IMG/VR virus record: IMGVR_UViG_3300027917_000060
Location: 1-51,243 of that record
DNA length: 51,243 bases
Source: a virus
Direction: 5' to 3' (one strand)
Under the pieces are notes generated by a model that was given only the letters and a program-made list of their open reading frames with translations, was not told where the DNA came from and did no database searches. Position numbers and translations under genes: made by a program. This document shows positions 26,712-50,618 of this stretch, piece after piece. Within the stretch, counting starts at the first letter, position 1. Each line of letters opens with the position of its first letter.

Positions 26712-27435
26712 GCTGTGCCCTAATGAAGTCGTCACATACCCTGCGAAATCGAGCCATGTTATCCACGGATGTCTCCTTACCGATCTTGTCCTCTGGGCGG
26801 TCCTTGCCGCCGATGTGGTACGCCTCGCCTGGGCCGATCATGTATGCCTCCATACCGAAGCGCAGCATGAATCGACAGCCTAGATCGTAGTCTACAAGAC
26901 CGTAGTCCTTGTACTCTAAGTCATGTCCTCCGACCGCGAAGTAGTCCTTCTTGCGCATGATCCAGTGCAAGTCGCGAAAGTCAGGGAACGCTTTGGGGTG
27001 CCCGCCCTTAAGCCGCCAGTCTTCGCGCTCGATCGGCAGGTCGGGGTACATGTCAACGGTGACATCGTGGGGCACGTCGTGCGTAGTGCCATAGACGATC
27101 AGCTCGGGCTCGGCGTACTCCAAGTTTGCTTCTATGGAACCAGGAGCGAGCACGACGTCGCCGTCGATATGCAAGACGTACTCAGTATCTGCGGCTTCCA
27201 TGCCTTGACGGATGGACTTGTGTGCGCCGAAGCCTTCGTGCTTGTGGTCCAGCAATCGCACAAGAAGAAGTGCGCGAGTCTCCTCGTTCGACTCTAGCAT
27301 GTTATCGTCAGTCCAAGGCTCGTCGTTCACGATGATCACACTGCGGATCGCATCAATGTTCGCGAGCAGCCCTGCCCGCACGAGCGGCCACGTTTTCTGC
27401 TTGCGGTAGTAATCTATGACGACGTCAACTTGCAT
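26701..27435 (-). CDS. GT-A fold glycosyltransferase, GT2-like (244 aa)
   Basis: Begins MQVDVVIDYYRKQKTWPLV and has SVIIVNDEPWTD, GFGAHKSIRQGMEAADTEYVLHIDGDVVL: the nucleotide-sugar-binding strand and a DxD motif (D91, D93) that coordinates the metal and the donor diphosphate. The second half carries WIMRKKDYFAVGGHDLEYKDYGLVDYDL, equivalent to the acceptor/catalytic region with an acidic pair seen in polypeptide and polysaccharide GT2/GT27-like enzymes. Soluble, no membrane helix. Overlaps the radical SAM gene by 22 nt and the methyltransferase gene by 11 nt. Confidence 0.85.
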   Translation of the reverse strand: MQVDVVIDYYRKQKTWPLVRAGLLANIDAIRSVIIVNDEPWTDDNMLESNEETRALLLVRLLDHKHEGFGAHKSIRQGMEAADTEYVLHIDGDVVLAPGSIEANLEYAEPELIVYGTTHDVPHDVTVDMYPDLPIEREDWRLKGGHPKAFPDFRDLHWIMRKKDYFAVGGHDLEYKDYGLVDYDLGCRFMLRFGMEAYMIGPGEAYHIGGKDRPEDKIGKETSVDNMARFRRVCDDFIRAQHGY

Positions 27436-28757: not shown

Positions 28758-29586
28758 GCTCTTTGTACCTCTCTAGCATATTTACGCTGTCTAGGTGTTT
28801 ACGCTGAGGGGTGTAAGCGTAATGCACAAATAAAGCTGAGCCGCAAAAGCACACTGGGCGCTCCAAACTCTCCGCCAGTGTCGTCGTCAACCACATCTCA
28901 TCATGCGCTACCTTGCCAGATGTCGCACGGCAGTTCTGGTACGGTATCTCGTCTCCGTAGTATGCATACACATGGTTCGGTGCGCGAAAGTAATCCTCGA
29001 CAACGATGCGCTCGAACAGGAACTCCTTGGTTGACCGGGCGTCAGCATGCGCCAAAAAGCTGTCATGCACTGCTTGTACCCAACCAACATCGTAATGTCC
29101 AACTGGGTCACTGGAATACCTGTTGCAAGGCCGCCAGTTTCGCACGTCTTTTGGCAATGCACCCAATCTCTGATGCTCCACGTTGCAATATGTGTTGTTC
29201 ACGATGTTGCCTACGACAGCCAAGTACTCACGATTCTGCCGTCTAAAGCTGGCTAGCTTCGAGATAGCGCCACGCGCCATCCACACGATGTCATCATCCA
29301 TCTTGATGTACATCTGCCCTGGCTCTTCACAGAATTGGTAGTACTCATCATACGGGTAGAACTCACCCTTCACCGCATCAGTCTCTCGGTTGGGCAACAC
29401 CTTCAACATGAACGTGTCCCTGTGCTCTGCAGCGAGGTCACGAATGTACTGCTTGTCGTCCTTGTCCTCCCATACGTTATCCCACAGCATGACGTACTTG
29501 TACGTCTTACGCTCTCGAAGTAAATAGGGGACCAAGACCTCCAGGTGGCGGCGCCTCCCACACGGAATGCACACAATCGGCTTCAT
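28723..29586 (-). CDS. Glycosyltransferase-like protein, GT-A fold with DDD motif (287 aa)
   Basis: Starts KPIVCIPCGRRRHLEVLVPYLL, like an N-terminal GT-A strand, and has KMDDDIVWM (D97-D99), the metal/nucleotide-sugar motif, after a long acidic linker. The C-terminal part includes FLFERIVVEDYFRAPNHVYAY and GKVAHDEMWLTT, acidic residues in the position of a catalytic or acceptor-binding loop. Nine cysteines are unusual among its neighbours. Coupled by a 35-nt overlap to the radical SAM gene and by ATGA to the RGP-like gene. Function assigned at fold level only. Confidence 0.75.
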   Translation of the reverse strand: MKPIVCIPCGRRRHLEVLVPYLLRERKTYKYVMLWDNVWEDKDDKQYIRDLAAEHRDTFMLKVLPNRETDAVKGEFYPYDEYYQFCEEPGQMYIKMDDDIVWMARGAISKLASFRRQNREYLAVVGNIVNNTYCNVEHQRLGALPKDVRNWRPCNRYSSDPVGHYDVGWVQAVHDSFLAHADARSTKEFLFERIVVEDYFRAPNHVYAYYGDEIPYQNCRATSGKVAHDEMWLTTTLAESLERPVCFCGSALFVHYAYTPQRKHLDSVNMLERYKERARKDCPDTAA

Positions 29587-30494
29587 TTACGTCCCTCACA
29601 CAAATCCACCCACCTAAACATGTTCTCACCGATCTTGGCGAAATAGTCGCTATCCACAGGGAAATCACGCAAACGTGCTGCGATCTTGCAGTATGACTGC
29701 ACTAACGACGACGCACGTACGTCCATGCTCCACACAAACTGCCACAACTCGCGGTGTATGCGATCGCCGGGCGCTTCCTTGTCCTTGTTTGCTTCGACAG
29801 ACGAGGCACGCTCGTGGTAGACCTGTGCGCCTCCATTGACGAAAGCCCAGTCGTGCTCGCTGAGCGCTTTCTGCGCAAACATCCCGCCCCATATGTCTGC
29901 GTAGCGGTCAAACGGTGTACCTTCGCCCTGTGCAGGTTGGTACATCACCTGCGTCACATCACGCTTGAAGCCAATGTTCATTGCAGATTGCGCGAATGGA
30001 GGGTGAATACGGCGCCATGCATTGCTCTTGTGATAGTACGGCACGATGGCGTGATGCATGTCGAACGCAGAATAATCAAGCACTCCGTTCCACAATCCGT
30101 GTGTGAGCGCGACAGGCATCAGCAAGCCTGAGCGCGGCATACCACGCGTGTATACCCCTTCGACCGTGAAGTTCCAATGAGGCACAGGCACTGACAGCCC
30201 GTCACTATGCTGCGCCGCCCACCACTTCGGGACGAAGCAATCGTCGTCCACAGTGAGAACGTAGTCATAACCATCAAGATACGCCTGCAAGAATCCAGCG
30301 CTACGAATCGAGTCGCAGCGTTGGCCGTACATTTCGGGCTCTGGCGCTACGATGTGGTGCACCTCCTGCCCATTCTCGTCTACATTGCGGCGCTCGCGAT
30401 CATGCACGACATACCACTTCACAGGCACAGTCTGCTCTGGGACTTTGAAGCCACGACACGTAGGCACTACAGCCGCAATCCTAGGGCGCTGCAT
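29583..30494 (-). CDS. RGP/UDP-arabinopyranose mutase-like protein (GT75 family)
   Basis: 303 residues matching the plant reversibly glycosylated polypeptide / UDP-arabinopyranose mutase pattern along its length: IAAVVPTCR strand, TVDDDCFVPK (DDDC at 83-86), YTRGMP (R117, aligning with the plant RGYP arginine that carries the reversible sugar), ALTHGLWNGVLDY (131-141), AMNIGFKRD (171-179), FDRYADIWGG (195-204), YHERAS (226-231), and a C-terminal YF.K...MFRWVD. The family interconverts UDP-arabinopyranose and UDP-arabinofuranose. Start is ATG 30494 with GGAGAG; the 34 residues upstream are not protein-like. The match is from memory of the plant family, not from a search. Confidence 0.8.
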   Translation of the reverse strand: MQRPRIAAVVPTCRGFKVPEQTVPVKWYVVHDRERRNVDENGQEVHHIVAPEPEMYGQRCDSIRSAGFLQAYLDGYDYVLTVDDDCFVPKWWAAQHSDGLSVPVPHWNFTVEGVYTRGMPRSGLLMPVALTHGLWNGVLDYSAFDMHHAIVPYYHKSNAWRRIHPPFAQSAMNIGFKRDVTQVMYQPAQGEGTPFDRYADIWGGMFAQKALSEHDWAFVNGGAQVYHERASSVEANKDKEAPGDRIHRELWQFVWSMDVRASSLVQSYCKIAARLRDFPVDSDYFAKIGENMFRWVDLCEGRK

Positions 30495-31206
30495 CGGCTC
30501 TCCAAGGTGGAATGTACGGGATTGACTGGAATAATCCGTGCTGCTCGAAGTGTGAAGGGTCGCGTTCTTCCTGCGCGCGGGTGTTATGCCGCACACGGAT
30601 GTGCTTCAAATACGCCATCGGAATAATCGGATCGTGATTGCGGCAATACGAAGCCATGCTCGTTGCATCGCCTGAGCCCAACGGCATGCGCACGTCGGAG
30701 ACATAGTCCTTGATTAGCTCCATAGGATGCAGCCTGCAAATGCCGCCGATCGCGTACGTCAGGAACTCAAGCTGCAGCTTCTTGACCATACACACCTGGG
30801 AGCGTGCCGGTGGGTTCTTTAGACCTCGAATCGTAGGCGAGAGGATCATTTTGTCGTCGAGGAGTGCGCTTGCTTCGACTAGCTTCTTGAGCCAACGCTT
30901 CGACGGGAACTCGCAGTCGTCGTCTAGACGTAGAAGGTACTTGGCGCCTTTGTCACGCGCTAGCCAATGCGCCTCGTTCCATGCGACATGCTGCCCTACG
31001 TTCGTAGAGTAGCAGTACGACGTGTCAATGAGGCCAGTACTCTCAGCGGTCTTGATAACATTCTCGCCAACCTCGGCGCACCCCGACCCGACGACGTGCC
31101 AGTGGAACTTACACCCTGCCGTACGACGAGCCTGTGTGATTGTCTCGTTGAGCATGCGAGCGCGTTCGGGCGTCGATGCACGCGTTACCGTAAATGCGCA
31201 GATCAT
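30481..31206 (-). CDS. Glycosyltransferase-like protein, GT-A fold with DDDC motif (241 aa)
   Basis: N-terminal MICAFTVTRASTPERARML resembles a GT-A nucleotide-binding strand; HVAWNEAHWLARDKGAKYLLRLDDDCEF carries a DDDC motif at 95-98, like the one in the adjacent RGP-like protein. A later ICRLHPMELIKDY...MPLGSGDATSMASYCRNHDP region may form the acceptor site. Start is ATG 31206; a GTG one codon earlier overlaps the upstream TAG. Six further cysteines. Probably a sugar transferase or nucleotide-sugar-binding protein of the same pathway; the donor is unknown. Confidence 0.75.
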   Translation of the reverse strand: MICAFTVTRASTPERARMLNETITQARRTAGCKFHWHVVGSGCAEVGENVIKTAESTGLIDTSYCYSTNVGQHVAWNEAHWLARDKGAKYLLRLDDDCEFPSKRWLKKLVEASALLDDKMILSPTIRGLKNPPARSQVCMVKKLQLEFLTYAIGGICRLHPMELIKDYVSDVRMPLGSGDATSMASYCRNHDPIIPMAYLKHIRVRHNTRAQEERDPSHFEQHGLFQSIPYIPPWRADAAP

Positions 31207-31208
31207 CA

Positions 31209-32000
31209 CTAACCCGAAATAAACGCCGCGCTAATCCCGCCTGGACGCTGACGTCGCGGTGTCTCCGTCAACGGCCTTGTGAGTTGCAAGTTCTCACCAT
31301 GCCAGTGGTACTTCTGCACAACTGCATTCACGCCCTTTCCACGCCATCCACTGAAGAACACACCGCGTGTGAACAACTCCCAATCGCCGAAGCGCCGGTA
31401 CTCTTCATTCCACATCTTGCCTGTCGCTAACTGCAGTCTCCACAGGGCACCCTTTGCGACTAGCGCATCCGACGTGTCGATGAAATTCGTCGAAGGATTA
31501 TGCAGACGCTGCACGTTCTCTGCAAACGGCACGAACGGCGATACGCCATTATGTAGATTCATTCTCGTGCACCCCTCGTCGATCACATACTCGCGGCGCC
31601 CGTAAACAAAATCCGGCCAGACCTTGCCCTCCTCGATCGCCTCGACAAGCACCGTCAAGTGGTTTGACGTCCATTCGTTGTCGTCGTCTAGATACGCGAT
31701 GTAATCTCCTCGCGCGTGCCATATAGCTACATTTTTTGGAACGCATTGGTACCCACTGTTCTCATCCAACGCCAAGAACCGAAAGTCAACCTCGGTCAGC
31801 TCGAACACATCTGCTGACTCTTTGCACACCTCGATCGTCTCTTCGTCAGCAGGGCCGTCATGGATGACGATTACCTCGAAGTCGTCAAAGTCCTGGTTTT
31901 CTACAGAATCTAACGCGCGCTTGAGTAGCTTGGGGCGCTTGTACGTATTGACGATCGCCGTGACGCAAGGAAACTCACGAAAGGGGCGGGATTCTCGCAT
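31209..32000 (-). CDS. GT2 family glycosyltransferase (263 aa)
   Basis: Classic GT2 features in order: VTAIVNTYKRPKLLKRALDSVENQDFDDFEVIVIHDGP (nucleotide-binding strand and linker), ALDENSGYQCVPKNVAIWHARGDYIAYLDDDNEW with the DDD metal motif at 105-107, and a C-terminal FGDWELFTRGVF with the WE/D pair that often contains the catalytic base. No membrane helix. Start is ATG 32000; the TTG two codons earlier is less likely. The gene overlaps the 132-residue protein gene by 26 nt. It transfers an activated sugar; the acceptor is unknown. Confidence 0.9.
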   Translation of the reverse strand: MRESRPFREFPCVTAIVNTYKRPKLLKRALDSVENQDFDDFEVIVIHDGPADEETIEVCKESADVFELTEVDFRFLALDENSGYQCVPKNVAIWHARGDYIAYLDDDNEWTSNHLTVLVEAIEEGKVWPDFVYGRREYVIDEGCTRMNLHNGVSPFVPFAENVQRLHNPSTNFIDTSDALVAKGALWRLQLATGKMWNEEYRRFGDWELFTRGVFFSGWRGKGVNAVVQKYHWHGENLQLTRPLTETPRRQRPGGISAAFISG

Positions 32001-32373
32001 GCTCAATCAAATCCTTCACTTCGGCTGTCTCGCGTAGAACACGTTGATCGAGCAACGATTTCGCAGTCTCGCGCACGCCCCGCATGGGGTAGACTTCCCA
32101 TTTGTACTCCTCTTCGTTCCAGACGGATGGGTTGTTCGCATATGGAACATAGCCTTCTAAGTACCCACAGTTGCAGACGAACGAATCACGGTACCAGTCG
32201 TCTTGCTCATGCCCTGTTTGCACGTGTCCTTCGCGCTTCGGCAGTGTGAAATCGCAGATCGAGATCGTGTCCTTGAATCCGTCCTTTGAGCGGTAGTAAC
32301 GCAAGCGTGCCCAAGTACGTTTGTTCCGCTCGATAAACCTACGAAAATCGTCCCAGTACATGCCGTGCATCAT
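31975..32373 (-). CDS. Hypothetical protein heading the glycan cassette (132 aa)
   Basis: Not recognised. Tyr/Trp/Arg-rich N-terminal half (YWDDFRRFIERNKRTWARLRYYRS), a small C-x-C pair (FVCNCGYLEGYV) and a helical C-terminal part. The ribosome site AAGGAG overlaps the CCA end of the tRNA-like gene just upstream, and ATG 32373 follows. It is the first gene after the capsid terminator, so it may be co-transcribed with the tRNA-like element. A role in the sugar pathway is only suggested by position. Confidence 0.65.
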   Translation of the reverse strand: MMHGMYWDDFRRFIERNKRTWARLRYYRSKDGFKDTISICDFTLPKREGHVQTGHEQDDWYRDSFVCNCGYLEGYVPYANNPSVWNEEEYKWEVYPMRGVRETAKSLLDQRVLRETAEVKDLIEHARIPPLS

Positions 32374-32381
32374 GGGCTCCT

Positions 32382-32475
32382 TGGCGGAGGGCGGAGGACT
32401 CGAACCCCTCGCCCGATCTTTCTAGTCGCCACCGTCAAGCGTCGAGCCGGGCGTTTATCCTTTGCTACACCCTCC
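32382..32475 (-). tRNA. tRNA-like gene, anticodon not assignable (94 nt, encoded CCA)
   Basis: Read on the minus strand it has a seven-pair acceptor stem (GGAGGGT with GCCCTCC, last pair G-U), discriminator G and an encoded CCA, a T-arm with the TTCGAGT loop (four pairs plus one A-C mismatch) and a D-arm-like segment. At 94 nt it is as long as class II tRNAs, and a CGA...TCG pair could be a variable arm. The middle does not give a clean five-pair anticodon stem with a U33 loop; the best pairing is CGCCCG with CGGGCG around a 32-nt insert. It may be a class II tRNA, a degenerate tRNA or a tRNA-like 3' element. Confidence 0.6.
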
Positions 32476-32491
32476 ATGCGCTGAGTATAAC

Positions 32492-32525
32492 AAAAAACGG
32501 GGGAGCCCCGTCAAGGACTCCCCCG
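32492..32525 (-). terminator. Rho-independent terminator after the capsid genes
   Basis: On the minus strand an 8-bp GC stem (CGGGGGAG / CTCCCCCG) with a 12-nt loop is followed by TTTTTT. It lies 31 nt past the stop of the small gene after the capsid gene and 16 nt before the tRNA-like gene, so it would lower transcription into the glycan and tail genes. Confidence 0.85.
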
Positions 32526-32556
32526 CTGCTATCCCAGGACGAATCCCAGGCTGGCA

Positions 32557-32774: not shown

Positions 32775-33698
32775 TTACAGCGACAGGGGGTAGTTGAGGC
32801 GTACCAGTCGATATTCCGTGGCCGACCATGCGGCAGGCACGACACCGAAGTACACCTTCGCACCGACTGTCGCGACTTGGTTCACGGGGTCACTGGTACC
32901 GCCGCTCCCCAGTTGTTTGACGAACGTGCGCGCCGTCATGTCGCTGATCTCGGTGACGTAATACGCATCGGGCGCGAACATGTAGTTACGCGCGCCGCTG
33001 ACAGCCGCCGAAATCGGTGCGGTCTCCTTGATGTTCGAGGAGGTGACGAAGCGTGCACCGTAAAGACGCCCGATTTCACCGATGTAGATGCGATCCGCAT
33101 TTCCCTCGGTGTACTTCGTGACGTCGAGCCACGCACCACCACTCAAGTTGATCTGCAAGTCGTATGCAGCCTTTGGGTGGATGATGCAAGGATAGTGGTT
33201 GTCGGGCGGGCGTGGGTTGTCCGCAGAATCGAGCGTCACTACAGCCTGAATGATGTCCGCAGGCTTGAGATAGTCGGTTCCGGTACCCTCGGACTGAATG
33301 GCTCCTGTCGCGGACAGCGCATCACGCACCGTGGTGTCCATCTTCTTTGCGATGTCCCGCGCGATGTCGACAAGCGACAGCTCGACGACGTCCGAAAGCG
33401 CAGTCATCACCAGCACGTCGGAGTGCTTGTACGCGCCCGCATATTGAGCCATCGTGCCCGAGATGTACTGGTCGCTGATTGGGCACGTCCCGATCACCGT
33501 TCCCTCGGTGTTTGCGAACACGATGTTCTTCTTCAACAGCCTCGGGATCTTGATGGTCGTACCGAAGTTACGCGGCACGGTCCTCTTGGTCCCGAACTGA
33601 TAGAAGTACAAGTTCGGGTACAGGTTCTCACCGAGCACCGCATCCCAGTAAGGCGGGATGAAATGGGTGAGGGTGCTGCTGGTTGTAGGTCCAGCCAT
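32775..33698 (-). CDS. Major capsid protein, N4-gp56 family
   Basis: 307 residues with the HK97-fold pattern of the N4-gp56 capsid family: N-terminal ...FYQFGTKRTVPRNFGTTIKIPRL, a central LSDVVELSLVDIARDIAKKMDTTVRDAL spine-like helix, YPCIIHPKAAYDLQ, IYIGEIGRLYGARFVTSSNI and a beta-rich C-terminus (VATVGAKVYFGVVPAAW). It forms the icosahedral shell. GAGGT precedes ATG 33698. Order portal, scaffold, capsid is standard, and the strong terminator downstream is consistent with the high transcription expected for this gene. Confidence 0.92.
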   Translation of the reverse strand: MAGPTTSSTLTHFIPPYWDAVLGENLYPNLYFYQFGTKRTVPRNFGTTIKIPRLLKKNIVFANTEGTVIGTCPISDQYISGTMAQYAGAYKHSDVLVMTALSDVVELSLVDIARDIAKKMDTTVRDALSATGAIQSEGTGTDYLKPADIIQAVVTLDSADNPRPPDNHYPCIIHPKAAYDLQINLSGGAWLDVTKYTEGNADRIYIGEIGRLYGARFVTSSNIKETAPISAAVSGARNYMFAPDAYYVTEISDMTARTFVKQLGSGGTSDPVNQVATVGAKVYFGVVPAAWSATEYRLVRLNYPLSL

Positions 33699-34821: not shown

Positions 34822-35217
34822 CTACCGACTGGCTGTGAAACCAGTGTATCTGCTTTCACCAGTTACATTTAACACATCCTCTCCGTGGATGCCAGTTGTT
34901 CGTTGTGCGCGGTCCTCCTGTTTCAGCTTCTTGTCGTGTAGGTCCTCGTATTGCCGGTTGAGGATCGCTGGAAATGCGAGCAATCGTTCGATGACGTGTA
35001 GTGCTGCTCGTTTCTCGTTGTCTCGTGAGTTGCCGAACTTGTCAACGGCGCCATTGAGTAGCTCGGCAACGAGGTCTTTGCGTACACGTTGCATGCGTGC
35101 CATGTAATCTGTCCACGCTGGTTGCGAGCCGAGCGCGGCGTACAGTGCGTGCAAGCGTGCAACGTCGTCATAGTTAGAGACCTGTATCGGCGATGGGAGC
35201 CCCGCTTCGGTCAACAA
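34822..35217 (-). CDS. Small helical protein between portal and scaffold (about 131 aa, start uncertain)
   Basis: The frame encodes a convincing helical protein (YDDVARLHALYAALGSQPAWTDYMARMQRVRKDLVAELL ... ALHVIERLLAFPAILNRQYEDL) like the small proteins that commonly follow portal genes. It begins inside the 3' end of the portal gene in another frame. No ATG lies close to the portal stop: a TTG at 35217 gives a 44-nt overlap, while an ATG at 35373 with AGGGGGAG upstream would give a 200-nt overlap. I list the TTG start. Function unknown; head maturation or a packaging accessory role is possible. Confidence 0.65.
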   Translation of the reverse strand: MLTEAGLPSPIQVSNYDDVARLHALYAALGSQPAWTDYMARMQRVRKDLVAELLNGAVDKFGNSRDNEKRAALHVIERLLAFPAILNRQYEDLHDKKLKQEDRAQRTTGIHGEDVLNVTGESRYTGFTASR

Positions 35218-37231
35218 TTCCGCCAGTTGCGCTCGCTCGGTCTCCCGGATTCTGCACGTTTTGCATCGGGTTGTTTTGACCGTTTCCACCAGCGCCGCCA
35301 GGGAATTGCGCGGGACCTTGCATAGGCCCTTGAGGCCCCTGCCCACTTTCTGCGCCCATGCCTTGATTTTCATTCGGTGCTCCCCCTGCCATGCCCTGCG
35401 CAGCTTGCATTGCCATCATCTGCTGCAGCATGACTTCTTCCTCGGTTCGTACGTACTTGTCCGGGTCCTTCCAGCCACGATCTTGCATGAGCTTGCGTAG
35501 GATCTGCTCGGGGCGCAAGTACGGGGCAAACGACGGGTTCGCAGCGAGTTGAACAAGCTCTTGGTCCATTTGGAGGCGAGTCTCCTTGGACAACGCGAAC
35601 ATCCCACCGCTTACGATAATGTCGATCGGTATCTGGATTTCCGCCAGGTCGACCTGCGCGTACTCCTCGCCCACGGTGCGGACGATGCGGGGTGAGGACA
35701 TGCGCATTTGCAGCCACTTCCAGGTGCGTTCGAGCAGCTCCTTCTTGACGGTGTAGTCGTTCCACATGGTGTAGAGCATGTGGCGCGCGTTGCCTTGCTG
35801 AATTTTACGCTCGACTTCGGTAGCTGTCTGTCTATCTTGGGCGCCGACGCCTTGCATGATGTCGCTGGCTGCGGCGGCGTGCTCGGCCTGGGTCTGACGA
35901 TACTGGTCCTCATTCCACGCATCGGGCAGCACCGGCCTGCGCTCAAGTACGCTGAACACGTCCCTGACCGTTTCGCCTTGTTCGGGGCGCACCTCGATCA
36001 CGCCTGCGGGTTGAATGAGGAACTGGTTGTCACTGACTACTGCGTCAGCTTTGTACAGATACTGCTGCCAGATGCCAAGGAATACCTCGTCGAGGCGCAT
36101 GTTTGCGAGCCGTGACTGCTGGTCCGCGAGCGGGCCGATGTAGCGCAGAATCGACTCGCCGTACAAGCGCTTAGGGATGGGTACCGACTTTATGGGAAAG
36201 TAAGGAGGTCTGCCATCAGGAGTCGGCGAGGGTTCGTCGCGAAGTACGTATTTACCCTCAGCTATCACGGTAAGACGCCAGGCGGAGTCGTCTTTCTCGC
36301 GTAGCTCTTGCGGTACCCATCCCCAGCATTGCCATAGTTTGATGCCGATGCCGTCACGCATCGGAGTGGTGAGGTGAAGGGGGATACCCTCAGTCGCTTC
36401 GGGCTCTCGTGCATATTCTACGGATACGCCCGCCGACGTGCCCGAGCGTGCATCACTAAGACTATCCCCTCCTTTCATCATCGCGTTGGGAGGAGGTATC
36501 GAGGCCATGAGTGCGGCGAACTCAGTCTTGTCGTATACGCCAAGATGATCTTGAACGTCTTGCAGCTTTTCGACCGTGGTGTCGATCTCTTCGATGAACC
36601 ACTCGTACTCGCCCGTTGGGTCGGGGAACACACGGTCGAGCGTGAGCCAATCGAAGTCGACGTTGTTGTACGCCTCTTCCGTCACGACCTTGGCTTCGAC
36701 GCCCATGACCTCCATGCCTGTTTCTTCGTCAATAATTGGCGTCGGCACGAGTACCTGGCGCTCGGTGTACTCTTCCTTCCAGACGATCTTGCCCCACGCA
36801 TGCCCCATGATCAGGGCGTACTTGAGCGCTTCGTACATCTTAGGGAAGAGTTCCATCTCTTCGACTGTGGCGCGCAGGAGTGACTCGCACATGAGTTCGT
36901 ACTCGGAGTCACGGCGTTGGCGAGCTTCGACGCTGAACCAGTCCGGCGTGTCGAACATGCCGATGACGTAGCGTGGAAGCAGCGTTTCGATGACCTTGTA
37001 GACCGTGGGGATGACTTCGTTGGCGCGCCACCAGTCGGCAGGGTCCTCCATGGGCTCGGCCCAATTCCGGTACCACTTCCAGTACTTGATCCAGTCGCCT
37101 TCGTAGAGCTGCTTGAGTTCTTGCGAACGCTGGCGACGCGCGGTCCATAGGTTGATGCGTACGTCGAAGGGGCCGTTGAGCTGGTTAGGCCCCTCGAAAT
37201 ACGCACCGCTCGATCCTGCCATGAAAGGCAT
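35174..37231 (-). CDS. Portal protein (podovirus type, 685 aa)
   Basis: N-terminal YEGDWIKYWKWYRNWAEPMEDPADWWRANEVIPTVYKVIETLLPRYVIGMFDTPDWF is typical of podovirus head-tail connectors; the middle has WLTLDRVFPDPTGEYEWF and IKSVPIPKRLYGESILRYIGPLADQQSRLANMRLDEVF, matching portal wing and stem regions. The last 80 residues are Met/Gln/Gly/Pro-rich and probably disordered. The protein forms the dodecameric DNA channel at one vertex and docks the terminase. ATG 37231 has AAGGG upstream; a third-codon ATG is possible but has a poor ribosome site. Confidence 0.92.
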   Translation of the reverse strand: MPFMAGSSGAYFEGPNQLNGPFDVRINLWTARRQRSQELKQLYEGDWIKYWKWYRNWAEPMEDPADWWRANEVIPTVYKVIETLLPRYVIGMFDTPDWFSVEARQRRDSEYELMCESLLRATVEEMELFPKMYEALKYALIMGHAWGKIVWKEEYTERQVLVPTPIIDEETGMEVMGVEAKVVTEEAYNNVDFDWLTLDRVFPDPTGEYEWFIEEIDTTVEKLQDVQDHLGVYDKTEFAALMASIPPPNAMMKGGDSLSDARSGTSAGVSVEYAREPEATEGIPLHLTTPMRDGIGIKLWQCWGWVPQELREKDDSAWRLTVIAEGKYVLRDEPSPTPDGRPPYFPIKSVPIPKRLYGESILRYIGPLADQQSRLANMRLDEVFLGIWQQYLYKADAVVSDNQFLIQPAGVIEVRPEQGETVRDVFSVLERRPVLPDAWNEDQYRQTQAEHAAAASDIMQGVGAQDRQTATEVERKIQQGNARHMLYTMWNDYTVKKELLERTWKWLQMRMSSPRIVRTVGEEYAQVDLAEIQIPIDIIVSGGMFALSKETRLQMDQELVQLAANPSFAPYLRPEQILRKLMQDRGWKDPDKYVRTEEEVMLQQMMAMQAAQGMAGGAPNENQGMGAESGQGPQGPMQGPAQFPGGAGGNGQNNPMQNVQNPGDRASATGGIVDRSGAPIADTGL

Positions 37232-39059: not shown

Positions 39060-40847
39060 CTAATTCTCCTTCCTAGGCAGTTTGCCCCAATCTATACGCT
39101 CGCTCCTACCCTTATCATAGTGATCGAAGTGCGGAATAGCCAAGCTGCCGTCTTCTTGGAGCCCGTAACGACCTGTCGGGTCGTCATTCGTCGATTTTGC
39201 TGGTGTGGCAAGCGCGGCACGGTTAAAAGTAGGCGTCGAGAGCTGGCGTGGGCGTAGATTTCGCACTTTCCACGCTTTTGCGTCACGAGTATGGGGGCGG
39301 ACGCGAATATCGGGGTGGAACGCCAGGCTCAGTGCGTCGATCGTGTCGTCGTGCGACCACTGGCCCATGTGAACCGCTTCGTCGACTATGACCTTGTGGA
39401 TGTTTTGCGGGAACCCCTGGACGAAGTGGATTTGACGTGCCATCGCGGGGTGTTGAAGGGCTTCGACGATGCGGACGAACTTCCGCCCCTGACCGCGCAC
39501 GTTGAGTGGGAAGATGGTGAGCGGGAGGTTTGCGCGGTTGAACTCACTACGCACCCATCCGAAAAAGGTATCCTCGCCGACTTTTTCCTTACAGAAGTTC
39601 GTGACGCTGTAGCCATGATCCGCCTTGCACTTCTGGTGCATGCTGATAATACGTTCAATGAACTCGCGGCCTTTGAGTTTGTCGCTGCGTAGAGCATCGG
39701 TGAGGTACAGGTGTCCGTAACTGTCGAAATGCCCGACGAACGCGACGGTGTAGTCGCCTCGCATCAAGATCTGCTCGTCCTTGGTCGCAGAGTCTACGAA
39801 GAACGCGCTGAACACGACGCCGCCAGGCAGGCGCGGTATCCACGTATCAAACCACTCTTCCTCGAACTTCTTCCCCGCTGGTGACATGCAGACGTTCATG
39901 TACTGCTTCCACCAGTCTTCCTCGCCACGCTTGGCGTCCATGGAGTACTGCGCGAGTTCTTGCAGCAACGTCTCACGGCTCCACACGGTGGGGAGGATCG
40001 GCTCGCCTTCGACACGGGGGTTCGTGACGGGGGCGCCGTGTTCGTCTTCGAGGCAGTGGCGAACCTTGGACTCGAACGCTGTGCTTACTTGCAGCGAGGT
40101 GTCTACTTCGTCGCCTCGGTCCTCGCCAAGCATTGCGCCGTAGATGTCGTTGTAGGCCCAACGCGTCCCGACAACGAACATCATGTTGTAAGCGCCGGTT
40201 TTGTCGACGATAGGAATTAAGTCGTTGAAGTCCTTGAGCGATTTGTCGGCTTGCTCGGGAGTGTTGACGTGACGTTTCTCGATGGGGTCATCGGCGATGA
40301 GTATGTCGCAACGTCGGCCCGCAACAGGCGCGCCAAGGTAAAAACTACGAAACGTCGGATCGATGAGGTTGTGGGCGTCACGTAGAGGGTGGGTAAAGTC
40401 ATAAGTGCGCCCAAACTGCTGGTCACGTTTGACGCGGTACTCGGGGAATACGCTGAGGAAATGCTCGTTGTACTGGAATTGACGCTTGACCATCTGGCAG
40501 AAGTGCTGCGCGGTGTCGTCGAGGGCTGAGACGAGGATGATGCGTACATTGGGGTCCCTTACGATGCGCCAGACTGCGTGTGCGATCGTGACAAGATACG
40601 TTTTGCGATGCCCGCGCGGCATGAGCAGCAGTTTGCGCGCGCCTTTCTTGTCCGTGCCGACCCACTCGCAGACGGGCAGGTGCAGCTTGTCGTAGTAGTG
40701 CGTAGGCGCCGTGTCGGGCCAAAGCACTTCCGTGGCGAAGAACCACAGATCCTTGAGGCCGAGTTCGCGCGTCTGGATGCGGAGTTCCTCATCCATGAAC
40801 GCGAGGACTTCGAGGTCCTCAGCTGTGGCTAGCTTGTCTTTTGCCAT
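39060..40847 (-). CDS. terL: Terminase large subunit (ATPase and nuclease)
   Basis: 595 residues. The ATPase domain shows the Walker-A-like PRGHRKT (77-83) of podovirus-type terminases, IILVSALDDTAQ, and Walker B DILIADD (181-187). The nuclease domain has VVFSAFFVDSATKDE, DYTVAFVGHF and a late HDDTIDALSLAF acidic motif. It powers DNA translocation through the portal and cuts the concatemer. The 3' end provides the ribosome site for the next gene; the 5' end overlaps a membrane-protein gene by 19 nt. Confidence 0.95.
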   Translation of the reverse strand: MAKDKLATAEDLEVLAFMDEELRIQTRELGLKDLWFFATEVLWPDTAPTHYYDKLHLPVCEWVGTDKKGARKLLLMPRGHRKTYLVTIAHAVWRIVRDPNVRIILVSALDDTAQHFCQMVKRQFQYNEHFLSVFPEYRVKRDQQFGRTYDFTHPLRDAHNLIDPTFRSFYLGAPVAGRRCDILIADDPIEKRHVNTPEQADKSLKDFNDLIPIVDKTGAYNMMFVVGTRWAYNDIYGAMLGEDRGDEVDTSLQVSTAFESKVRHCLEDEHGAPVTNPRVEGEPILPTVWSRETLLQELAQYSMDAKRGEEDWWKQYMNVCMSPAGKKFEEEWFDTWIPRLPGGVVFSAFFVDSATKDEQILMRGDYTVAFVGHFDSYGHLYLTDALRSDKLKGREFIERIISMHQKCKADHGYSVTNFCKEKVGEDTFFGWVRSEFNRANLPLTIFPLNVRGQGRKFVRIVEALQHPAMARQIHFVQGFPQNIHKVIVDEAVHMGQWSHDDTIDALSLAFHPDIRVRPHTRDAKAWKVRNLRPRQLSTPTFNRAALATPAKSTNDDPTGRYGLQEDGSLAIPHFDHYDKGRSERIDWGKLPRKEN

Positions 40848-42196: not shown

Positions 42197-42741
42197 CAGT
42201 TCACATCCTCTGGAGCGCCCGCAGTACGCTTGCGTTCGATCTCTGCGAGCGCCTCCTCAGCTTGTTTGATCTGCACTTCTTTCTTGCGCAAGAGCATGCT
42301 CTTGAGTCGCTTTTCTTTTTCCTCGCGCTCTTTCTTGTACGCAGTCATCGAGACGCGACGCGGCTTCTTGCGCATCTCGTCCTGCCAACGAATCTCTTGC
42401 TTCGAGCCTTCGAGCGTAGTAATCGCGCGCAGGGCTACGTCCGCTTTGTCTTTGATGGAGACGCGTAGGTCACGCATCTCTTCGCGCGTGAGGCGTAGGA
42501 AGTATTCGAGGATCGTGCGTGCTTGCAGCCCGATCCGCATTTCAAGCTCGTCAAGATTGACGATACCAAATGAGCGTGATTCTAGTGCAGCTTGTTCGTC
42601 GAGAGTGCGTGATGTCTTACTTAGTATCGACGCAGGGTCCTCAGCGATCGGAGTTTTCTTCGCGACGTCACCTGCCCCTGTCAGCCGCTTGCTTTCCTCA
42701 AGCTCCTTGCGCTCCTTCTCTCGTTGTTTCGCTTTGCTCAT
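42196..42741 (-). CDS. Coiled-coil protein upstream of the terminase, candidate small terminase (181 aa)
   Basis: Highly charged helical protein. Residues about 65-120 (LDELEMRIGLQARTILEYFLRLTREEMRDLRVSIKDKADVALRAITTLE) could be a helical core and the C-terminal third (KKEREEKEKRLKSMLLRKKEVQIKQAEEALAEIERK) is a long coiled coil. A helical DNA-binding oligomer a few genes before the large terminase fits a small terminase, but no HTH motif is clear. ATG 42741; a GTG one codon earlier is possible. Confidence 0.55.
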   Translation of the reverse strand: MSKAKQREKERKELEESKRLTGAGDVAKKTPIAEDPASILSKTSRTLDEQAALESRSFGIVNLDELEMRIGLQARTILEYFLRLTREEMRDLRVSIKDKADVALRAITTLEGSKQEIRWQDEMRKKPRRVSMTAYKKEREEKEKRLKSMLLRKKEVQIKQAEEALAEIERKRTAGAPEDVN

Positions 42742-43303
42742 CACTAGGTAATTTACGATCCTGTGCTAAGCGATCAACCACGGCGCCGATCGTGCGGACT
42801 TCACGAGCTGCAGCGCACTTGACACAGCGCGGAGAATCGCAAGGCTCGCGATAGAACTTGTGCCCAGGACGGTGCCAATTATACGTCTCAACGATAGGCG
42901 CATTGTGCAGCTTCTTGTTGCAGTTCGACTTTACCATAGTTTTGCCCGTCGGATCTGGGAAGAGCACGACGTGTGCCCAACGCAAGTGAAATCCGTTACC
43001 GATAGCAGCACGAATCGGTTTGCTCATTCCTCGTTGAATCAGCAGCAATTCCTCGAATCTTCCGTACTCCGCGTCCTCGTAGTGGCTGATCTTCCACCCG
43101 TGCGATTCAAGCTCAGCCACGATCTTTTCTCGCTCCGTTTCGTTGACAGGCGGGAAGCGTGATGGTCGCCCTCCCTTCCAGTACGCTATGTCCTTGAGCC
43201 CACCATGTGTGTGCTTGCACTTGGCAGAGCACCACTTGAAGCCGGTCCCATAGGCGTGTACGTCGAACTCCTCTCCGCAGCCCTTACAGACGGCTAGGCG
43301 CAT
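42698..43303 (-). CDS. Zinc-finger protein, first gene of the leftward operon (201 aa)
   Basis: N-terminal CKGCGEEF...KWCSAKCK is a four-Cys zinc finger (C6, C9, C25, C29) of the kind seen in phage DNA-binding proteins; a second CDSPRCVKC group lies near residue 155. The middle (FEELLLIQRGMSKPIRAAIG, LRWAHVVLFPDPTGKTMVK) is mixed alpha/beta. Ideal ribosome site (AGGAGG) before ATG 43303. As the first leftward gene beside the control region it could regulate the operon or act in packaging; neither is shown. Confidence 0.7.
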   Translation of the reverse strand: MRLAVCKGCGEEFDVHAYGTGFKWCSAKCKHTHGGLKDIAYWKGGRPSRFPPVNETEREKIVAELESHGWKISHYEDAEYGRFEELLLIQRGMSKPIRAAIGNGFHLRWAHVVLFPDPTGKTMVKSNCNKKLHNAPIVETYNWHRPGHKFYREPCDSPRCVKCAAAREVRTIGAVVDRLAQDRKLPSDEQSETTREGAQGA

Positions 43304-43371
43304 CTTGACCTCCTAGGAATTTTATACTACTCACCCTTGAGCAGTAAGCATTAAGTTAACTCGTATATATC

Positions 43372-43399
43372 AGTATACAAATCTGCGCCTGGAAGTCAA
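43372..43399 (-). promoter_or_regulatory. Sigma70-like promoter for the leftward operon
   Basis: On the minus strand TTGACT (43399-43394), 16-bp spacer, TATACT (43377-43372). The -10 lies inside box B. Transcription would start near 43365, about 60 nt before the ATG at 43303. Confidence 0.6.
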
Positions 43400-43592
43400 G
43401 CACTAAGTTGGTGCGGTATAAAGTTATAGGGAAATAGAAGAATAGGAGAGAAATGTTGGCACACACATTGCTATAATACTATATATAATTACAAATCTTT
43501 ACTTCGCACATATAGTAGTAGTATGTAGGTGTATTCTTACATTACTCTATAACTTTATACCGCGCCGAGTAAGTACAGGAAAAGCAGTCTAG

Positions 43593-43618
43593 GATTTGTA
43601 TACTGGTTTATACTGGTT
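43593..43618 (+). promoter_or_regulatory. Mirror-image box B with tandem TATACTGGTT repeat (candidate rightward promoter)
   Basis: GATTTGTATACTG matches the -10 region of the leftward promoter in inverted orientation and runs into a tandem repeat TATACTGGTT x2 (43599-43618). No TTGACA-like -35 is seen at the expected distance, so an activator or a phage polymerase might be needed. Confidence 0.4.
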
Positions 43619-43659
43619 TCCTAAGCGTACTATTTGCAACAAGAGTAGTATAAAATAGC

Positions 43660-43870
43660 TTTCGCCTCGGCTACGCTTAGCTACATTATATTCCAAGAGT
43701 GCTTAGCTTCACTGCGCCTAGGCGCCTCGGCGTCACGCAACGCCACGACGCCTCGCTGCCTCGTGTGTCGCGTAACTCGCTGAGGCGACTCGCACTTGCG
43801 GGCGGCTGCGACGCTTTTGTTGCAGTCAGCGCCCCTGCGACACGGATGTTACACCAAGGCGCCTCGCCCC
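43660..43870. other. GC-rich non-coding leader with CGCCTCG repeats
   Basis: Abrupt change from AT-rich to GC-rich sequence. CGCCTCG occurs at 43663, 43723, 43749 and 43860 and inverted near 43782, with GGCGCC palindromes. A 9-bp inverted repeat CTAAGCGTA/TACGCTTAG (43621-43629, 43672-43680) sits at its left edge. The one open frame here has no ribosome site and an Arg/Ser-rich noise-like product. Could be a structured RNA leader or protein-binding region. Confidence 0.45.
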
Positions 43871-43895
43871 GGCGCCAAGCTTATAATAGCTCTAT

Positions 43896-43923
43896 TTGAG
43901 CACCCCGGCCTCATTAGTATAAC
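43896..43923 (+). promoter_or_regulatory. Sigma70-like promoter for the rightward operon
   Basis: TTGAGC (43896-43901), 16-bp spacer, TATAAC (43918-43923). Start expected near 43930, giving a leader of about 120 nt before ATG 44052. The leader has a GCGTAA/TTACGC hairpin and a G-rich tract. Confidence 0.6.
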
Positions 43924-43968
43924 TAGAAAAAATTCGGGCGTAAGTTCTTTTATTACGCGCGCTTAGGC

Positions 43969-43986
43969 GGTGGGGGAGGGTGGGGG
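43969..43986 (+). other. G-rich tract in the 5' leader (possible two-tetrad G-quadruplex)
   Basis: GGTGGGGGAGGGTGGGGG lies about 65 bases before the first rightward start codon, inside the predicted transcript. Confidence 0.35.
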
Positions 43987-44051
43987 CATGTCTCGGGCTA
44001 AGGGGTGCAAGGACGGAATGAACCGTCTACGTACAGGCAAAGGAGATGCCT

Positions 44052-44474
44052 ATGTTACGCGAATTGAAGTGGAAGCCGTCCACCAAGGTGGCCAAGGTTG
44101 ACAAGATTGTCGACGGTGAGACGATCACCGTTGACAAGATTGGCGACGATGGTAAGAAAGTACGCGAAATTGCCGCATACAATCTTCTCGCAGTCGTCGA
44201 AGATGAGGATGGGAACCAAAAAGCCCTGAATCTCGCAACAACGGTCAACCGAATGGATCGAACCGCAGAGGATTGCAAACTCTTTTACGGATTCGACGAT
44301 CCAATTGCAGGCACACTGTCAGAACGTGCGGATAACATCCACCAAGGGATGCAAGCCAAGGCAAAAGAGTACGCCAAGCAACTCAAAGCCCAGGTGAAAT
44401 TCGCCGCATCGCGGACGACAAAAGAGCGAAAAGAGACGACCCTCGACGCCGGGGCGCTCGAATTCGCAGAGTAA
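44052..44474 (+). CDS. Hypothetical protein, first rightward gene (140 aa)
   Basis: Not recognised. N-terminal half mixed (VDKIVDGETITVDKIGDDGKKVREIAAYNLLAVVEDEDGN), C-terminal half helical and charged (LSERADNIHQGMQAKAKEYAKQLKAQVKFA). The second ATG (44052) is chosen because AAAGGAG is six bases upstream, while the first ATG abuts it. As the first gene of the rightward operon it may be abundantly expressed early; a regulatory or host-takeover role is only a guess. Confidence 0.7.
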   Translation: MLRELKWKPSTKVAKVDKIVDGETITVDKIGDDGKKVREIAAYNLLAVVEDEDGNQKALNLATTVNRMDRTAEDCKLFYGFDDPIAGTLSERADNIHQGMQAKAKEYAKQLKAQVKFAASRTTKERKETTLDAGALEFAE

Positions 44475-45298: not shown

Positions 45299-45517
45299 AT
45301 GGACAACGCACAACGCGACACATGGATTGATGCTATCGCAGCGTCCATTGCGCTGAGCGGTGGCGAACTGCCCAAGCCTGTGCGGTGTAGGATTTGTGGC
45401 AAGCACAAGCCGTTACGCAGCGTGGCTGGGCATCTCGTGTGCTTGGGCTGTTGTCGCGTGCACCTGGGATTCAACGAGAACGCGCACAAGAAGCGTCCCA
45501 AACAACTCAAGGAGTAG
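45299..45517 (+). CDS. Zinc-ribbon-like protein (72 aa)
   Basis: CRICGKHKPLR ... HLVCLGCCRVH contains two Cys pairs with a histidine between them, likely binding zinc. The end is basic (NAHKKRPKQLKE). AAGGAG upstream of ATG 45299. Resembles small Cys-pair phage proteins; function unknown. Confidence 0.7.
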   Translation: MDNAQRDTWIDAIAASIALSGGELPKPVRCRICGKHKPLRSVAGHLVCLGCCRVHLGFNENAHKKRPKQLKE

Positions 45518-45521
45518 CGTC

Positions 45522-45734
45522 ATGCGTTGCATTCGCTGCAATGAGGAGTTCGAGGCCAAGCGTGCACGCGCTGGCTACAACCTCTGCAAGGATTGTGGTG
45601 ATGAGTACGCAAGTGAGTTGATTGAGGCAAGGAGCAAGGAGACTGCGCCACTGTACAACAAGGGGCCATACATGCTCATTCCACGTATGCGTGGCGCAAC
45701 GAAATCGTTGGGTAAGAAAGGAGAAAGCAAGTGA
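45522..45734 (+). CDS. Zinc-ribbon-like protein (70 aa)
   Basis: MRCIRCNEEFEAKRARAGYN then CKDCGDEY: a CxxC...CxxC zinc ribbon of the anti-termination or RNA-polymerase-associated kind in size, though no family is recognised. C-terminal Lys-rich tail (SLGKKGESK). AAGGAG from the previous gene's end serves ATG 45522. Confidence 0.7.
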   Translation: MRCIRCNEEFEAKRARAGYNLCKDCGDEYASELIEARSKETAPLYNKGPYMLIPRMRGATKSLGKKGESK

Positions 45735-46090
45735 AGAAGTCGTACAAGCTACTCACGTGGCGCAAGAACCGTGAGACGGCGCAAGAGCGCAAGGCACGCG
45801 CTGTGGAGAAGTGCGTCGTGCCGCAAGATCAGTACAGCCTCGCGTTGTTTCATGGCGGGCAGTATTTGGGGCACTGGGCGTTGGATTGGACGGAAGGGCG
45901 GATCATCCTGGACCAAGAACTCGTCAACGGTGTCGTGGACGCGATTCGGGAGTTTGAGGCGCACGTACGTGAAGCAGGCGTGGTGTTCAAGGCCACGCCG
46001 TGCCCTGAAGGTGGTCTGCACGGTGATAATCACTCGTGTCCTTCGTGTCGTGCGGTGGCGCGGCCTCATGGTGAGAAGGAGGACTCGTGA
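45731..46090 (+). CDS. Hypothetical protein with C-terminal CPSC (119 aa, GTG start)
   Basis: Basic N-terminus (MKKSYKLLTWRKNRETAQERK), a beta middle (YSLALFHGGQYLGHWALDWTEGRIIL), a helix (VNGVVDAIREFEAHVREAG) and a Cys/His end (CPEGGLHGDNHSCPSC) that may bind a metal. GTG start overlaps the upstream TGA (GTGA) with AAAGGAG before it. Confidence 0.65.
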   Translation: MKKSYKLLTWRKNRETAQERKARAVEKCVVPQDQYSLALFHGGQYLGHWALDWTEGRIILDQELVNGVVDAIREFEAHVREAGVVFKATPCPEGGLHGDNHSCPSCRAVARPHGEKEDS

Positions 46091-46260
46091 TGGACGAACC
46101 AGCGTACGCCGTCACATTTCGCTGCATGGCGTGTGGATGGACATACGTGTGCGGGGATCACAGTGACGCGGATCTGAAGGTGCTTATTGGGCACGCGACC
46201 GCTGTGTGCTTCAAGGCCCCGATCCGCGTGGACGTGGAGGAGATCCATGCCAGTTCATGA
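46090..46260 (+). CDS. Cys/His-rich protein (56 aa)
   Basis: FRCMACGWTYVCGDHSDAD...GHATAVC carries a CxxC and later Cys/His residues in zinc-finger-like spacing. TGATG overlap with the previous gene fixes the start. Unknown function. Confidence 0.6.
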   Translation: MDEPAYAVTFRCMACGWTYVCGDHSDADLKVLIGHATAVCFKAPIRVDVEEIHASS

Positions 46261-46516
46261 ACGCGCTCAAGGACTCAACCCAGTCAAGGTCATACGCAAG
46301 CTCGAAGCAGGCGAAGCGTTCACAGGGCGCATCAACTTCGAGTTGTGGGAGGATAGCTTCCAGGTTGCGTTGTATCTCGTGCGGCGTATCCCTGGCCAGC
46401 GTCAGCCTACGTGGACGTATCGCATTGCGAACCCAGCAGAGTTTGCGCAGCTTGCGTTCAGTGCTGCGGAGGTGCATGCTGCCGAGGCGATGCGCAAGTT
46501 GGAGGAGAAGCCATGA
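46247..46516 (+). CDS. Hypothetical protein (89 aa)
   Basis: Mixed alpha/beta protein (VKVIRKLEAGEAFTGRINFELWEDSFQVALYLVRRIPGQRQPTWTYRI). ATG 46247 follows GGAGGAG; overlap of 14 nt with the previous gene. Not recognised. Confidence 0.6.
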   Translation: MPVHERAQGLNPVKVIRKLEAGEAFTGRINFELWEDSFQVALYLVRRIPGQRQPTWTYRIANPAEFAQLAFSAAEVHAAEAMRKLEEKP

Positions 46517-46773
46517 GACCCCCCACGATCATCACCACGTCGAAGAAGTGCGCTAACGACGCGCACGACTGGTTTATGGAAGCGCACGGCCCTGGGTGGA
46601 ATCGACCTTGGTATTGCCGTCGTTGTGGCTTCACCATTGGCTCTGATGACATGTGGTTGTATCGCAGCGTCATTGCGCTAGAACGCAAGCTAGATCGCTT
46701 GATGCTTGCGTTGAATGTGAGCAAGGGTGGGCTAGAGGACGAGGAGATCAAGGCAGGAGGGCAAGAATCATGA
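46513..46773 (+). CDS. Hypothetical protein with CRRC pair (86 aa)
   Basis: MRPPTIITTSKKCANDAHDW start, a WYCRRCGFTIGSDDMW centre that may bind zinc with upstream C/H residues, and a coiled-coil-like C-terminal half (VIALERKLDRLMLALNVSKG). ATGA overlap with the preceding gene. Confidence 0.6.
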   Translation: MRPPTIITTSKKCANDAHDWFMEAHGPGWNRPWYCRRCGFTIGSDDMWLYRSVIALERKLDRLMLALNVSKGGLEDEEIKAGGQES

Positions 46774-46958: not shown

Positions 46959-47263
46959 GCACCCCCAAGCTCTCACCCGAGTTGCAAGCGGAGTACAACG
47001 CTGCGATGGCGGATTACGAAGCACTTGAGAAAGTGCTCAACGCGCCCGGTGGTGATAAGGAAGCGTTGTATAGAGTGCGCGCGGCCAAGCGCTCACTCGA
47101 AAACCAGCACAACATCCTCAAGCTGTACGAGCATCTCGCGTTCTTCGTGGATACGCAGCACAGGCTAAGCAAGATGGTTAACGTGCTCACGATCAGCGTG
47201 ATCATCATCGCGATGCTGCTGGCTGTGAACGCCCTCGCCACCATCATCTTCAAAGCCCCATAG
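46955..47263 (+). CDS. Tail-anchored helical membrane protein (102 aa)
   Basis: Long charged helix (LQAEYNAAMADYEALEKVLN ... LYRVRAAKRSLENQHNILKLYEHL) followed by a C-terminal transmembrane segment (VLTISVIIIAMLLAVNALATIIF). The stop codon TAG (47261-47263) lies inside the tRNA-Met gene, as its residues 8-10. Function unknown. Confidence 0.65.
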   Translation: MSTPKLSPELQAEYNAAMADYEALEKVLNAPGGDKEALYRVRAAKRSLENQHNILKLYEHLAFFVDTQHRLSKMVNVLTISVIIIAMLLAVNALATIIFKAP

Positions 47264-47329
47264 CTCAGTAGGTAGAGCAGCACGCTCATAACGTGCAGTG
47301 CGCAGGTTCGAGTCCTGCTGGGGCTACCA
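47254..47329 (+). tRNA. tRNA-Met (anticodon CAT)
   Basis: 76 nt with encoded CCA. Acceptor AGCCCCA/TGGGGCT, D-arm GCTC...GAGC, anticodon stem GCACG/CGTGC with loop CTCATAA (CAT at 34-36), T-arm GCAGG-TTCGAGT-CCTGC. All stems are perfect. The A1-U72 pair and the anticodon stem lacking three G-C pairs argue against an initiator; it could be elongator Met or Ile decoding AUA after lysidine modification. Confidence 0.95.
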
Positions 47330-50086: not shown

Positions 50087-50160
50087 GGAGCGTTAGTGTA
50101 ATGGCTAACACGCCGGGCCGTAACCCCGCAAATCCAGGTTCGAGTCCTGGGCGCTCCACC
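50087..50160 (+). tRNA. tRNA-Tyr-like (anticodon GTA, C33)
   Basis: Acceptor GGAGCGT/GCGCTCC, D-stem GTGT/ACAC, four-pair anticodon stem CGGG/CCCG with loop CCGTAAC (GTA at 34-36, C instead of U at 33), T-arm CCAGG-TTCGAGT-CCTGG. Ends ACC followed by G, so CCA is not fully encoded. Short variable loop, unlike class II bacterial tRNA-Tyr. Confidence 0.8.
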
Positions 50161-50235
50161 GGGGCGGTGGTGTAATGGGAAGCACTAGAGATTGTGATTC
50201 TCTCAGCGCCGGTTCGACTCCGGCCCGTCCCTCCA
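50161..50235 (+). tRNA. tRNA-His (anticodon GTG)
   Basis: Acceptor GGGGCGG/CCGTCCC (one G-U), D-stem GTGT/GCAC, anticodon stem AGAGA/TCTCT with loop TTGTGAT (GTG at 34-36, U33 present), T-arm GCCGG-TTCGACT-CCGGC, encoded CCA. It begins directly after the previous tRNA. The usual G-1:C73 pair of tRNA-His is absent: the base before is C and position 73 is T. Confidence 0.9.
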
Positions 50236-50325
50236 TTAACATGCTCAACATTATGCCCGAACATGACCCTACCGGCGGACTGTGTCTTGACCTGTCTTCG
50301 AGACTGGTGTGCGTAGACCCGTTCA

Positions 50326-50469
50326 ATGTCACCGGAACCAACCAACGCCACTGTCGTGTTCGGGCACCAAGATGCCCCCGTCGCATTTCTGTTAACCGAT
50401 GGAGTACCCCCAAGCTACACACACGGTAAACGAGTTCTTGACCGCGATGGGGGCATTTACTTTTCGTAG
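50326..50469 (+). CDS. Possible small protein between tRNA genes (47 aa)
   Basis: Open frame with protein-like composition (ATVVFGHQDAPVAFLLTDGV, YTHGKRVLDRDGGIYFS) but no clear ribosome site; only one ATG is available after an upstream stop. The competing frame 50239-50429 looks less coding. It may be a remnant. The remainder of 50236-50543 shows nothing else I can support. Confidence 0.35.
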   Translation: MSPEPTNATVVFGHQDAPVAFLLTDGVPPSYTHGKRVLDRDGGIYFS

Positions 50470-50543
50470 GAGACACGTTAAGCTATACGCCGTAATCAAA
50501 TCTGCTTTCAGGTGCGAAGTGGGAAGAGGCGTGAGAACTACTA

Positions 50544-50618
50544 GATGATATAGCTCAATTGGTAGAGCACCAGACCATAAATCTGGCGTTCCGGGTTCGA
50601 TTCCCGGTATCCTCGCCA
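50544..50618 (+). tRNA. tRNA with anticodon position ATA (C33)
   Basis: Acceptor GATGATA/TATCCTC (one T-C mismatch at pair 3), discriminator G, encoded CCA, D-arm GCTC...GAGC, perfect anticodon stem CCAGA/TCTGG with loop CCATAAA (positions 34-36 read ATA, position 33 is C), T-arm CCGGG-TTCGATT-CCCGG. Anticodon ATA would read UAU (Tyr). The C33 and A34 are unusual, so identity is uncertain; a one-base shift would read CAT (Met/Ile). Confidence 0.75.

Follow-up and report, generated by a model that had tools for sequence, protein, structure and literature searches.

The locus and its genes

The region considered here is a mirror-symmetric stretch of 338 bases lying between two outward-facing gene blocks in a virus record of 51,243 bases, the whole of which we name the window. 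To its left the genes run leftwards. The first of them (42698..43303, minus strand) codes for a protein of 201 residues with paired cysteines at its N-terminus, and its Shine-Dalgarno sequence, AGGAGG, starts 5 bp past the outermost conserved box of the region, box C below. There follow a gene for a 182-aa protein, then the terminase (39060-40847), the portal (35174-37231), the major capsid protein (32775-33698), glycosyltransferases and very large proteins. The glycosyltransferase-like genes form a cluster (24392-32006, minus strand) downstream of the capsid gene; those at 30481-31209 and 31209-32006 also follow the capsid gene in the two relatives, L139 and L219, discussed later. Of the very large proteins there are two, of 1355 and 2235 aa (1958-12732, minus strand). 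They match nothing in Pfam or PHROGs, and the longer finds no match in PDB sequences or in the phage collection either.

The right operon is made of small proteins, several of them with paired cysteines, together with four tRNAs (50087-50618 and 47254-47329, plus strand). Their specificities are Met, Tyr, His and again Tyr, the last of these with the anticodon ATA, which is unusual. Its first clear gene (44046..44474, plus strand; 142 aa) begins 390 bp from the right-hand box C. The intervening bases (43657-44045) are GC-rich and carry many GCCTCG or CCTAGG words; as RNA they fold somewhat better than shuffled sequences (z -2.05), and a similar CCTAGG-rich stretch is present at positions 130-220 of L139. 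Structural genes on the left, small genes and tRNAs on the right: this agrees with an earlier note on this DNA, which had placed the boxes between two divergent operons.

Neither the 201-aa nor the 142-aa protein adjoining the region has a regulator match or resembles cI or cro/mor, and the structure models of the two flanking proteins are too poor to read (pLDDT 35 and 47). Of the proteins scanned, none matched a p4-like, CI/Cro-like or sigma-like family. Several small paired-cysteine proteins of the right operon (45299-46773, plus strand) are candidate regulators; one in this interval, at 45360-45734, is weakly DksA-like (E 0.0036). The contig is probably incomplete, since no enzyme of replication or transcription could be recognised on it.

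Two mirror arms sharing three boxes

Alignment of the region with itself (blastn) delimits a left arm (43319..43444, minus strand), facing the structural, late operon, and a right arm (43532..43656, plus strand), facing the small-gene and tRNA operon. They are 71% identical over 126 nt (E 2e-10), and a repeat search returned an 87-nt arm pair with 74% identity. Between them lies an AT-rich centre (43445..43531) that is not itself mirror-symmetric (10/43 positions). The whole region has a GC content of 34%, against 56-57% for the genome.

Reading outwards from 43488, each arm displays TATTCTT..ATT, then box A, 29 bp, box B, 37 bp (right) or 38 bp (left), and box C. Box A, of 17 bp (CTATAACTTTATACCGC; 43413..43429, minus, and 43547..43563, plus), includes the near-palindrome TATAA-CT-TTATA; box B, of 13 bp, reads GATTTGTATACTG (43371..43383, minus, and 43593..43605, plus); box C, of 14 bp, reads GAGTAGTATAAAAT (43319..43332, minus, and 43643..43656, plus). 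All three are identical in the two arms. The boxes, their perfect match and their spacing are thus exactly as first described, and the mirror centre, found at 43487.5-43488, falls where the earlier note had put it. Arithmetic from the coordinates places the palindrome centres of A and B 52 bp apart in either arm, or about five helical turns.

Outside the boxes the arms have diverged. Identity is 14/29 between A and B and 12/19, then 5/18, between B and C. The inter-box DNA is only partly similar, as had been claimed, and the likeness extends slightly further than was then thought: it begins 15 bp inside box A (11/15) and persists beyond box B. It is lost sharply just past box C (9/44 positions) and towards the centre.

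Chance is a poor explanation for this symmetry. The local mirror score is 48, when 2000 dinucleotide shuffles gave a mean of 10.1 (sd 1.6) and a maximum of 22, and the arms share 11 12-mers where the same number of shuffles gave at most one. Scanning the whole window for mirrors, the runner-up place scores only 16, and among 198 other fetched loci (2.29 Mb) comparable arms were seen on one contig only, L162, which appears repeat-rich. Identity is also clustered: the three longest identical runs total 44 positions, a value equalled in 5 of 20,000 shuffles of the match and mismatch columns. This clustering, with the diverged DNA between the boxes, leads us to see the arms as homologous, old and unevenly constrained, judging from their sequences, which bears out the idea that the boxes were kept by selection rather than left by a recent duplication. 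Two other accounts can be set aside: an assembly fold-back would have made identical arms, and a telomere-type hairpin would have a palindromic centre.

Palindromes and promoter matches

In both arms box B opens a 16-bp palindrome, GTATA-N6-TATAC, at 43363..43378 on the left, where it would be an operator over a -10 element, and at 43598..43613 on the right, where it is again a proposed operator. These single copies, one per arm, are the only two in the window even when one mismatch is allowed; when the region was shuffled 3000 times, at least two copies arose once. The right arm also holds 2.1 tandem copies of TATACTGGTT (43599-43619).

A predicted sigma-70-type promoter for the left operon, TTGACT-16-TATACT (43372..43399, minus strand), ranks second in score among some 102,000 positions. 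Its -10 is the TATACT of box B, overlapped by the left palindrome, which is the position of an operator, while its -35 falls outside the boxes. Because 9 of 400 shuffles of so AT-rich a region reach the same score, the match would by itself be moderate evidence, strengthened by its coincidence with box B. The right arm retains the -10-like box; the -35 is not kept there, so that, to judge from their letters, the arms cannot be identical sigma-70 promoters. A weaker rightward candidate, GAGAAA-18-TATAAT with an extended TGC (43448..43477, plus strand), sits in the centre and has the fourth-best score in the window.

TATACT occurs once outside 43300-43960, at 32484 on the minus strand, within TTGACG-19-TGTTATACT, the window's top-scoring sigma-70 match. 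That match is overlapped, shortly after the capsid gene, by a terminator-like hairpin followed by a T run (32484-32550, minus strand; GGGGGAGTCC...GGGCTCCCCC). Since the only outside copy lies in the best match of its kind and at such a hairpin, the phage plausibly uses TATACT as a functional -10. Downstream of the same match, at 32380-32470 (minus strand), is found a tRNA-like 3' half (GGGGTTCGAGTCCTCCGCCCTCCGCC), possibly a decayed tRNA, for which neither ARAGORN nor Rfam makes a call.

All five TTTATAC words of the window fall in the mirror region, which for this one word is striking. As 6% of shuffles of an arm this AT-rich contain some 7-mer three times, we count this recurrence as support only. 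Box C was also considered as the -10 of the left operon and judged unlikely: standing 5 bp from AGGAGG, it would have transcription start inside the Shine-Dalgarno sequence (43309-43314). We therefore take it for a site on the flank or part of the leader rather than for the left promoter.

Relatives of the phage

Scans of viral contigs with single proteins (terminase, capsid, the 201-aa and the 2235-aa protein) gave no match, an initial terminase profile brought up relatives at no more than 31% identity, and a genome scan with the terminase found none. A capsid profile, then a terminase profile built from two sequences, recovered the only true relatives found, L139 and L219, with 43-44% identity in the terminase, 50-54% in the portal and 44-45% in the capsid. 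The earlier note had looked to related phages for conservation of the boxes: A, B and C were seen in neither contig, and both are too diverged for this to decide the matter. The L219 contig stops 310 bp before the start of its first gene, and no box is present there.

L139 continues upstream of the structural operon, where a gap is followed by a gene of the opposite direction. In this gap (973-1072) a 17-bp repeat of the type TGTGTCAAGATAGACAC occurs three times. Two copies are exact GTGTC-N6-GACAC palindromes, the third departs from one at a single position, and the array is flanked by two copies of GTGT..CGAAAGGTTACA (GTGTxxCGAAAGGTTACA). The letters differ from those of the window, yet a cluster of 5-6-5 palindromes occupies the equivalent position in the gene order, which suggests that the gap may be an operator region in this lineage, with regulator and sites changed.

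Comparison with known switches

As a control, the mirror score was also run on divergent switches known from other phages. It is 19 for phi29, 16 for TP901-1 and 14 for lambda OR, against 48 here. In phi29 the best mirror centre falls in the gap that separates the early p6 gene from the late gene 7, annotated with A2c and a p4 site, and the score there exceeds all of 300 shuffles (maximum 17). Protein p4 binds four inverted-repeat sites in two groups, represses A2c and A2b, and activates the late promoter A3, which has a poor -35 (PMC3100819). The window shares with phi29 divergent operons that are parted by an AT-rich gap and of which one is structural (scaffold and major head protein in phi29), symmetric sites around a centre (p4 sites there, putative sites here), and one promoter with a poor -35. 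It differs by its longer and better kept arms; by its palindrome, GTATA-N6-TATAC, where the p4 consensus is CTTTTT-N15-AAAATG; by the lack of a p4-like family match among the right-operon proteins scanned; and by the good -35, which is on the structural side, whereas the phi29 late promoter has a poor one. By analogy, the region may be viewed as a stronger case of the anatomy seen in a proven early/late switch, and we do not claim that it belongs to the phi29 system.

With lambda OR and the TP901-1 sites OR, OL and OD, where the promoters of TP901-1 stand back to back around a central operator (PMC7250872), the region shares divergent promoters (here predicted) and palindromic operators (here proposed). 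The overlap of such operators with a promoter, typical of CI and Cro, is found at the left arm, for a predicted promoter. By contrast with CI switches, no recognisable repressor gene adjoins the region, and the mirror symmetry of lambda and TP901-1 is weak.

A probable control region for two operons

The explanation that we prefer, and to which we give an even chance of being right, is that of a symmetric control region for transcription of two operons, with operator sites common to both arms. Several observations argue for it: mirror arms far beyond chance, with boxes kept on a diverged background; a palindrome found only here, once per arm; a strong left-arm promoter match with TATACT in box B; structural genes on one side, small genes and tRNAs on the other; and the significant mirror symmetry of the proven phi29 switch. 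Counting against it are the want of a regulator match among the proteins scanned, the good -35 on the structural side, the reverse of phi29, the 390 bp from the right arm to the first clear gene, the two relatives without the boxes, and the -35 not kept between arms.

Binding of a regulator, repression or activation, looping and timing are what we infer from this anatomy. One putative DNA-binding regulator encoded by the phage would occupy equivalent sites in both arms: box B as a palindromic operator, and boxes A and C to either side of it at nearly fixed distances. On the left, the operator would lie over the -10 and start of a predicted promoter that serves the structural operon and is of the host sigma-70 type, and its occupancy would block or reshape that promoter. 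On the right, where the -10-like box has no good -35, firing would depend on the bound regulator or on the central promoter. Cooperative binding across the mirror could then couple the two operons, in the manner of phi29 p4.

The main rival, which we think unlikely, is a replication origin: an AT-rich centre would be bordered on both sides by mirrored boxes for an initiator, with an anatomy like that of herpes oriL and a logic like that of PLE, the satellite of ICP1. In herpes simplex, the gap that separates two divergent operons at oriL is non-coding and holds repeated semi-palindromic boxes. For PLE, published work documents origins that lie between divergent operons and carry semi-palindromic iterons (PMC7145576, PMC8263062), and the region resembles both types in its repeated semi-palindromic boxes, its non-coding gap and its divergent operons. 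Its low GC content and palindromic boxes fit an origin, as does a change of sign in GC skew with a cumulative minimum at about 43-44 kb. This change coincides with the change of gene strand, which explains it, and on account of this coincidence an origin remains conceivable. Against it weigh the lack of any recognised initiator or other replication gene on the contig, iteron-like repeats that are few and unevenly spaced, and the strong promoter match within one arm.

A second rival, rather more doubtful, would have A, B and C recognised by an RNA polymerase or sigma factor of the phage, with transcription running outwards from both arms. TATA-like cores in all three boxes, in outward register, speak for this, and a -35-like sequence that is not kept is what an enzyme other than sigma-70 would predict. 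The promoters of T7, N4 and the late genes of T4 are dispersed, in many copies over the late genes. Here, unlike these, none is repeated in the 43 kb of the structural operon: with up to three mismatches, A and C have no further copies in the 51 kb and B is no commoner elsewhere than chance allows. The dispersed class is therefore disfavoured. The earlier note had advised this search and had spoken of phage-specific promoters or operators; its regulatory reading is supported, whereas that promoter class is not, as further copies are lacking and the most promoter-like element is an ordinary sigma-70 match in the left arm, its -35 lying beyond the boxes. A scan with a 15-mer of box A picked out 41 viral contigs, and neither box B nor box C was present in any of them. 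Moreover, no RNA polymerase or sigma factor was recognised, and left box C stands too near the Shine-Dalgarno sequence.

It is less probable again, though conceivable, that an origin and a bidirectional promoter are combined in this tailed phage, with mirrored boxes for an initiator or regulator about an AT-rich centre, as in oriL.

Improbable, too, is a relic of an old inverted duplication or of a small MITE-like insertion, functionless in one or both arms. The arms are homologous along their whole length and the outermost 14 bp, box C, make a perfect terminal inverted repeat; against this stand the clustered conservation and the fact that no exact match to A plus B exists in a genome collection of 84,980 species. 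The MITE itself we reject, for the flanks show no target-site duplication and blastn finds no second copy in the window. Finally, an invertible segment, its arms serving as recombination sites that flip a central promoter between operons, is very improbable: the perfect pair of 17-bp A boxes does flank a centre with a rightward extended -10 candidate, but boxes B and C would be left without explanation and no recombinase was recognised in the window.

What such a switch would mean

Mirror-arm scoring picked out the phi29 switch, which suggests that it may flag such switches from sequence alone. Were origin and promoter combined here, the start of replication would be coupled to both transcription programmes. 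If the region is a control region for two operons, this lineage would have arrived independently at a phi29-like solution, a single compact and symmetric switch that serves both of its opposed transcription programmes, in a phage unrelated to phi29 by anything found. The lineage is uncultured, and the region would be a clean target in the search for its regulator.
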